From Nitrososphaeria archaeon (GTDB taxonomy: Archaea > Thermoproteota > Nitrososphaeria > JACIWG01): DNA of 56,377 nt. The stretch lies in NCBI GenBank assembly GCA_029776065.1, contig JARVJP010000009.1:114911-171287 (forward strand), in the 5' to 3' direction. The notes beneath the pieces were generated by a model. The model was not told where the DNA came from, made no database searches, and saw only the letters and a program-made list of their open reading frames with translations. Position 1 is the stretch's first letter, and each line of letters starts with the position of its first letter. Made by a program: the position numbers and the translations under genes. Below, piece by piece: positions 6,523 through 55,176 of this stretch.

Positions 6523-7254
6523 TTAAATGGTCTTATACTTTTCTTTAGCTAGTGCAGCATATCGTGTTACTTCTTCTTCTGTGTACCTTCTAAGCTTCTT
6601 AGTTTGGGTATCAACCATAGCCATCCTTATATGACTTACACCTGACTTGTCTTCACTTACCAGATAAACACATTTAACAGCTAATGTAGAAAGATCTTCG
6701 ATAGTCATCGATGAGTTAAAGTTGTTTTCCAAGAATTGGGTTACCTGATCGGATCCTGCACCGATTGAGACAGCTTCATATTGGAGATAACTTCCACTAG
6801 GATCGACCAAAAACACAGATGGCCCTTTTTTATCAACACCAGCAATTATTAAAGAAACGCCAAATGGGCGAACTCCTGCATACTGAGTAAATTCTTGAGT
6901 CAGATCCCCAAGATATTTAGCTACTGACTCTACATCAACTGATTCATCATACAAAAGACGATTTGTCTGCGAGAAGACTCTAGCTCTGTCGACTAGAATT
7001 CTGGCATCAGGTACATACCCTGCTGCAGCTACTCCGACATGATCATCTACTTGAAATATTTTCTGGGAAAGCGTTGAAGTCTGAAGCTTTCTAGTACGTT
7101 CTTCTACAGCTAAGACGATACCGTCTACTCCACGTAAACCCAAAGCAATAGTACCTCTTCTAACCGTCTCTAAAGCATATTCTACTTGATATAGGCGTCC
7201 ATCGGGTGAGAATATAGTTAGTGCCCGATCATAGCCTGCCGAAGGACCGAAAAT
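6523..7254 (-). CDS. psmA: proteasome subunit alpha, apparent ATT start
   Basis: 243 residues when read from ATT at 7254. The N-terminal proteasome A signature is complete only from there: FGPSAGYDRALTIFSPDG, then QVEYALE. Alpha rings gate the 20S core through this segment. In frame upstream of the ATT come TAT, AGA and a TGA stop, so no ATG, GTG or TTG is available; the next possible start, TTG at 7143, would delete the gate and the H0 helix. A strong GAGGTGA Shine-Dalgarno lies exactly 6 bases before the ATT. A TTTAAA box (7303-7308, reverse strand) lies about 50 bases upstream. Beta subunits are encoded at 34245 and 48454. Confidence 0.93.
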   Translation of the reverse strand: MFGPSAGYDRALTIFSPDGRLYQVEYALETVRRGTIALGLRGVDGIVLAVEERTRKLQTSTLSQKIFQVDDHVGVAAAGYVPDARILVDRARVFSQTNRLLYDESVDVESVAKYLGDLTQEFTQYAGVRPFGVSLIIAGVDKKGPSVFLVDPSGSYLQYEAVSIGAGSDQVTQFLENNFNSSMTIEDLSTLAVKCVYLVSEDKSGVSHIRMAMVDTQTKKLRRYTEEEVTRYAALAKEKYKTI

Positions 7255-7350
7255 ATATCTTCACCTCTTTTCTTACTGAACAGTAGTCTTCTAAATCATA
7301 TGTTTAAACCTTTTCATTTTTATCATCACAATAGAAATGAAAAAGGAGTT

Positions 7351-7424
7351 TTGGTCAGTATCGTCGCGAGTTCTTCAATGCCCCCTTAGGCTCAGTCTGG
7401 GACGGCTTGTACTTCATCCCATTA
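7351..7424 (-). ncRNA. candidate C/D box sRNA (2'-O-methylation guide)
   Basis: On the minus strand the order is box C-like GGGATGA (7414-7420), D' CTGA (7392-7395), C'-like TTGAAGA (7372-7378), D CTGA (7355-7358); C'-D spacing is 13 bases, close to the archaeal norm. The stretch is clearly more GC-rich than the flanks. A TTTAAA box at 7444-7449, inside the end of the upstream gene, would place transcription start just before box C, and a T-rich tract follows box D. The D guide (7359-7371) can pair with 23S rRNA over about 10 bp with one G-U (plus-strand 52542-52551, helix 89 region). Class is fairly well supported; target is inference. Confidence 0.6.
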
Positions 7425-7438
7425 GAAACGTTGCTTCT

Positions 7439-7915
7439 TTAAGATTTAAACGTTTTCCTTAAATTTGAAATAGACTCTCTATAAAATTCTACTGCGTCCC
7501 TAAGATATATTTTCTTTGGTTTAAATTTAAAATGGATAGAATTAGCTTTACCTAAAGATATTTCACGTTCACATAATTTGGGTTTATCGAGTCTGACATA
7601 AAGTGACTTTGAAGAATCAATATATTCATCTAAAGTTTCCAAAAGCGTTTGTTTTTGATTTGGTTCTAATCGTTTAAATATTATTTCAAAAATTCTTTGC
7701 GCGATATCTTCTTTAAGATTAGAATGATACTTTATGATAGGGTTACCATGATGTCCTTTAAGTTGAATTATATTGAATAGGGACTTGTTAAGACAGAAGT
7801 TTTCTTCAATGGCGTGGAGGATTTTCTCATCATCTTCTGTTGAGTGTACATAAAAGGATATTTCTAATTCAAAATTATTTAACAGATGTTTTATCACATC
7901 AAAGTCTATAAACAT
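7439..7915 (-). CDS. RNA-binding protein of the exosome-associated COG1325 type
   Basis: About 158 residues. EISFYVHSTEDDEKILHAIEENF and KGHHGNPIIKYH match the pattern I know from the archaeal 'predicted exosome subunit/RNA-binding' family, a small alpha-beta protein. I choose ATG (MFIDFDVIKH); a TTG eleven codons upstream would add a stretch translated from the AT-rich promoter. The gene is divergent from Kae1 and points toward the sRNA and the psmA-exosome operon, which fits a role in RNA metabolism. Biochemical function is not established. Confidence 0.72.
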   Translation of the reverse strand: MFIDFDVIKHLLNNFELEISFYVHSTEDDEKILHAIEENFCLNKSLFNIIQLKGHHGNPIIKYHSNLKEDIAQRIFEIIFKRLEPNQKQTLLETLDEYIDSSKSLYVRLDKPKLCEREISLGKANSIHFKFKPKKIYLRDAVEFYRESISNLRKTFKS

Positions 7916-7916
7916 T

Positions 7917-7932
7917 ATAAAATATAAATAAA
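7917..7932 (+). promoter_or_regulatory. TATA-like promoter of the KEOPS/uS15 operon
   Basis: AT-only run TATAAAATATAAATAA about 26-40 bases before the Kae1 ATG at 7958. With the usual archaeal distance of about 25 bases the transcript would be leaderless or nearly so. The same AT-rich block separates the divergent COG1325 gene. Confidence 0.5.
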
Positions 7933-7957
7933 TAATTTTTTTATCCAAATTGATTAA

Positions 7958-52083: not shown

Positions 52084-55176
<3,093 letters not shown>

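Follow-up and report, generated by a model that had tools for sequence, protein, structure and literature searches.

A candidate double-guide box C/D RNA gene for the ribosomal P-loop, with a putative promoter of its own, ahead of proteasome and exosome genes in a Nitrososphaeria archaeon

Between a gene for a COG1325-type RNA-binding protein and a run of proteasome and exosome genes, the genome of a Nitrososphaeria archaeon (contig JARVJP010000009.1) contains a short GC-rich element, which raises the question of whether an RNA is encoded there and what it would do. We analyzed this locus within a stretch of 56,377 nucleotides (hereafter the window), for which a box C/D sRNA with its own promoter had been proposed from the sequence. 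Comparative sequence analysis makes a strong case that positions 7353–7420 on the minus strand are a box C/D guide RNA gene, likely transcribed from its own promoter.

The predicted core is 68 nucleotides long and extends from a closing-stem GG to a closing-stem CC, reading GGGATGAAG-TACAAGCCGTCCCAGA-CTGA-GCCTAAGGGGGC-ATTGAAGA-ACTCGCGACGATA-CTGA-CC on the minus strand. Its limits follow homologues found by DNA and covariance-model searches, and it is the sole match when the window is scanned with the covariance model. Listed 5′ to 3′, and all on the minus strand, the parts are the closing-stem GG with box C (GAUGAAG; together GGGATGAAG, 7412–7420), the D′ guide (7397–7406), box D′ (CUGA, in the DNA CTGA, 7392–7395), a GCC/GGC k-loop stem between D′ and C′ (7380–7391), box C′ (UUGAAGA, in the DNA TTGAAGA, 7372–7378), the D guide (7361–7370), and box D (CUGA, in the DNA CTGA at 7355–7358) with the closing-stem CC (7353–7358 in all). 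The D′, C′, and D boxes are supported by the alignment of homologues, and the four boxes stand in the order originally predicted. Box C is AUGAAG and not the strict RUGAUGA, and its A5 pairs with the U of box D; the ordered boxes contain the pairs that form k-turns, and guides complementary to rRNA lie directly upstream of D and D′ with their target bases at the +5 position. Fibrillarin and Nop5 are both encoded in the same genome, in adjoining genes. The element has a GC content of 56%, compared to roughly 20–38% in its flanks, and box D is followed by a T-rich tract at about 7330–7348 (minus strand) that may serve as a terminator; both features agree with the earlier description.

If the element encodes an RNA of this kind, its boxes should be recognizable in other genomes. 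A DNA search of 40 relatives returned five matching genomes besides the window’s own, four of which contain the C/D element; in the two more distant ones the conserved stretch is about 7349–7421. A covariance model built from five sequences, run on 400 genomes of the window’s class, detects the sRNA in 321 of them, nearly always as one copy per genome. Across 47 aligned copies, 96.7% of the k-turn and k-loop cells are paired, and double-sided changes number 48 compared to 10.1 in shuffles. For 85 copies, including Asgard and other Thermoproteota sequences, covariation scores 0.455, compared to 0.150 ± 0.013 in shuffled alignments (0 of 500 shuffles), and is also far above slid controls. The clearest signal is an AU/GC exchange that couples an AUGAAG box C with a CUGA box D, and an AUGAGG box C with a CCGA box D; the k-loop stem likewise shows compensatory changes from GCC/GGC to GCU/AGC. 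Had relatives lost all four boxes, this would have spoken against the proposal; they instead keep the boxes, with compensatory changes. The identification as a C/D sRNA is thus upheld by homologues, box covariation, and guide conservation. That a C/D-like sequence arose here by chance and yields no RNA is hardly credible at all, being contradicted by the covariation as well as by the class-wide occurrence and by the P-loop pairing and TATA peak described below.

The family extends well outside the class. A DNA pattern containing both guides occurs on 83 contigs, among them representatives of Desulfurococcales, Sulfolobales, Bathyarchaeota, and Nezhaarchaeota and, within the Asgard archaea, which are relatives of eukaryotes, of Baldr-, Borr-, Hel-, Hermod-, and Odinarchaeota. 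Covariance-model matches are present in 72 of 196 Asgard genomes (E ≤ 0.01) and in 295 of 397 Thermoproteota genomes, a count that includes the window’s class and whose weak matches are not all secure because the threshold was E ≤ 0.1. The architecture varies in places. In the lineages of L055, L056, L036, L052, and L053 the D′–C′ loop is enlarged to a hairpin of roughly 25–35 nt. Three sequences of family f27 (L318, L320, and L329) have box C and the P-loop guide behind the COG1325 gene and no clear D′/C′/D half, and are possibly decaying or reduced copies; in family f2, no more than the P-loop half is retained (L219).

The D′ guide, GCCGUCCCAG, pairs with CUGGGGCGGC in the P-loop of 23S rRNA (52763–52754, minus strand) over 10 bp with one G–U, and the D′+5 position falls on base 52760, the predicted methylation site and the equivalent of E. 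coli G2251. The residue at this position contacts the CCA end of the P-site tRNA. Among 119 distinct homologues, 86 form 10 of 10 pairs and 33 form nine, giving at least nine pairs in every case, although this conservation partly reflects the way the matches were selected, the guide being itself part of the models; what variation there is consists mostly of C to U changes opposite G. The D′ guide had been called weak and assigned a target in 16S rRNA. Neither point survives comparison: it is the best-supported guide of the element, its P-loop pairing is kept across homologues, and the P-loop match ranks above the 16S site GGGACGGTT (56290–56282, 9 bp with one G–U), which we rejected as the D′ target.

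The D guide, CUCGCGACGA, can form 10 bp with one G–U at helix 89 of 23S rRNA (52542–52551, minus strand; E. coli 2457–2466), with base 52549 (E. coli 2459) at D+5. Length, wobble pair, and +5 base all reproduce the original prediction, but the choice of target is less clear-cut than it implied, since the same guide forms 9 bp with one G–U at helix 93 (52409–52417, minus strand; E. coli 2591–2599; D+5 base 52416, E. coli 2592). Compensatory changes between guide and target favor helix 89 in two lineages, one in family f9 (G066/L029) and one in Asgard archaea (G771/L254). The window’s own guide has one pair fewer at helix 93, and Nitrosopumilaceae-type guides form 9–10 Watson–Crick pairs at helix 89 compared to 7 at helix 93. 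The guides of some lineages, on the other hand, clearly favor helix 93: those of families f38, f46, and f55 form 10 bp there and just 6–7 bp with helix 89, and in G195 the helix 89 match is gone while helix 93 is retained at 9 bp. A C/D sRNA whose D guide truly targets helix 93 (about E. coli 2591–2599), with the helix 89 match secondary or coincidental, is accordingly a possible reading of the element, if a rather unlikely one. In most of the class, neither candidate target varies. Because the window’s type has one extra base before box D, its +5 base is G2459 in place of U2460 (or G2592 in place of U2593), and the D guide has been lost altogether in the genus of L004, L006, L015, and L016, which belongs to the same family as the window. 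As a separate observation, the 23S genes of G007, G351, and G310 (L080, L081, and L082) carry inserts of about 360–1300 bases at one common site, equivalent to about 52507 in the window, whose own 23S gene is uninterrupted; these inserts are probably introns.

The proposed promoter, a TATA-like TTTAAA, is present, at 7445–7450 on the minus strand and not at 7444–7449 as first given, an offset of one base. The motif falls within the final part of the COG1325 gene, whose stop is at 7439, and stands at −33 from the A of box C, the modal distance of the TATA peak in homologues. Of 125 upstream regions, 64% have a TATA-like hexamer between −36 and −30 from box C, compared to 12–20% (about 17%) in other intervals of equal width. 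This position-specific enrichment bears out the idea of an independent promoter, from which transcription would start at the closing stem. Promoters of their own have been reported for about 20% of the archaeal C/D genes studied (PMC7994747).

The element is flanked upstream by the COG1325-type gene (7439–7948, minus strand) and downstream by psmA, encoding the proteasome alpha subunit (6523–7254, minus strand), and its placement ahead of proteasome–exosome genes finds support in other genomes. In most of the class loci examined, the sRNA directly follows COG1325, Rpp30, and/or Pop5 on the same strand, as it does in 15 of 27 Asgard loci. Outside the class, such upstream genes combine with a downstream PsmA–SBDS–Rrp4–Rrp41 series in Desulfurococcales (L187, L189, and L198) and also at L129 and L130. 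At four loci (L002, L003, L009, and L129) the Pop5 frame overlaps the sRNA by 11 nt, ending in box C. To guard against circularity, since the covariance models carry the guide sequence, 25 loci were also chosen through the COG1325 protein family, for the most part in genomes where the model match is weak or absent. Six of them have the sRNA or its P-loop half nearby, and the neighborhood is therefore ancient and recurrent but often broken. Among the papers searched, none links a box sRNA with a superoperon.

In the window, as in some Desulfurococcales, psmA comes immediately after the element, which could also be mainly a leader or processing element: a k-turn that binds L7Ae, regulates the downstream psmA genes, and guides nothing; a k-turn in the leader of L7Ae’s own mRNA is known to mediate autoregulation (PMC5539422). 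Such a leader would leave the conserved P-loop pairing unexplained. A second TTTAAA at 7303–7308 (minus strand), probably the psmA promoter, separates the two genes, and many genomes keep the boxes and guides where the sRNA is located elsewhere than upstream of psmA. We consider a leader function very improbable.

We regard it as highly likely that the element is instead a double-guide C/D sRNA of an ancient family, with its own promoter, that directs methylation of the P-loop and of helix 89 or 93. Transcribed from that promoter, the RNA would recruit L7Ae, Nop5, and fibrillarin through its two k-turns. With the D′ guide on the P-loop, fibrillarin would 2′-O-methylate the equivalent of E. coli G2251; with the D guide bound next to the peptidyl transferase center, on helix 89 and possibly on helix 93 as well, the +5 rule predicts methylation at E. 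coli 2459 or 2592. Methylation would thus very probably be directed to the part of the ribosome where tRNA is gripped, and binding of both guides together may aid folding of the peptidyl transferase center, a chaperone role. The family as a whole appears to be old and often adjoins RNase P, exosome, or proteasome genes.

In its four boxes, k-turn and k-loop, double guide, and targets near the peptidyl transferase center, the element resembles archaeal box C/D sRNAs of 50–70 nt (PMC7994747, PMC4644070). It differs in being recognizable across Thermoproteota and Asgard archaea, often with both guides kept, and in having a recurrent gene neighborhood and a probable promoter of its own. Archaeal C/D guides are described as subject to fast evolution and turnover, with no position common to seven species (PMC7994747), and G2251 (alignment G2520) was a predicted target in three of seven (PMC4644070). 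Given that reviews call these guides fast-evolving, the deep conservation of a P-loop guide sRNA is unusual. A family kept on this scale, aimed at the P-loop and peptidyl transferase center and often found next to genes for RNase P, the exosome, and ribosome maturation, would give a rare indication of which rRNA methylation is least dispensable. Some members of the family, in Sulfolobus or in other cultured species, may already be catalogued (for example by Lui 2018 or Tripp 2017). At gathering thresholds, Rfam gave no match at the site, including sR1 and other archaeal sRNA families.

Outside archaea, SNORD31/snR67/AtsnoR35 (Rfam clan CL00053), Giardia GlsR4, and Dictyostelium DdR13 likewise have a D′ guide directed at this P-loop G, and U31/snR67 modify the G equivalent to G2251 (PMC3511168, PMC11542601). 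RlmB, the E. coli Gm2251 methyltransferase, acts on this position as a stand-alone protein with no guide RNA (PMC11542601). Alignments with the SNORD31 model (RF00089) show the P-loop guide likewise in its D′ position, and the model matches L017, the best homologue tested, at E = 0.00023 (26.5 bits) and the window at E = 1.2 (15.2 bits), both below its gathering score of 40 bits. The GlsR4 and DdR13 models match L017 weakly, and all archaeal matches fall below the Rfam gathering scores; the SNORD72 and SNORD31 matches at E = 1.2 were rejected as family membership. The likeness is concentrated in the guide, itself dictated by a universal target, and the archaeal C′/D′ k-loop and D guide are unmatched in the eukaryotic P-loop snoRNAs. 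Kinship with SNORD31/snR67 is thus suggestive, and descent of these P-loop guides from one guide RNA in the common ancestor of Asgard archaea and Thermoproteota seems doubtful, though worth entertaining. It is reported that no individual snoRNA family could be firmly assigned across the archaea–eukaryote divide (PMC3511168); a shared ancestry, if true, would add this sRNA to the few guide RNAs that can be followed from one side to the other, and the sRNA is a concrete candidate with which the homology of archaeal sRNAs to eukaryotic snoRNAs can be tested.

The downstream psmA gene has a peculiarity of its own. No ATG, GTG, or TTG precedes its conserved N-terminus in the window (7252–7254, minus strand) or at L004, L006, and L015, and in the window, L004, and L006 an in-frame TGA stands three codons upstream. 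A frameshift is the alternative explanation. An AUU comes after a GAGGTGA Shine–Dalgarno sequence and, with this ATT conserved in four of the family’s genomes, is the probable start codon.
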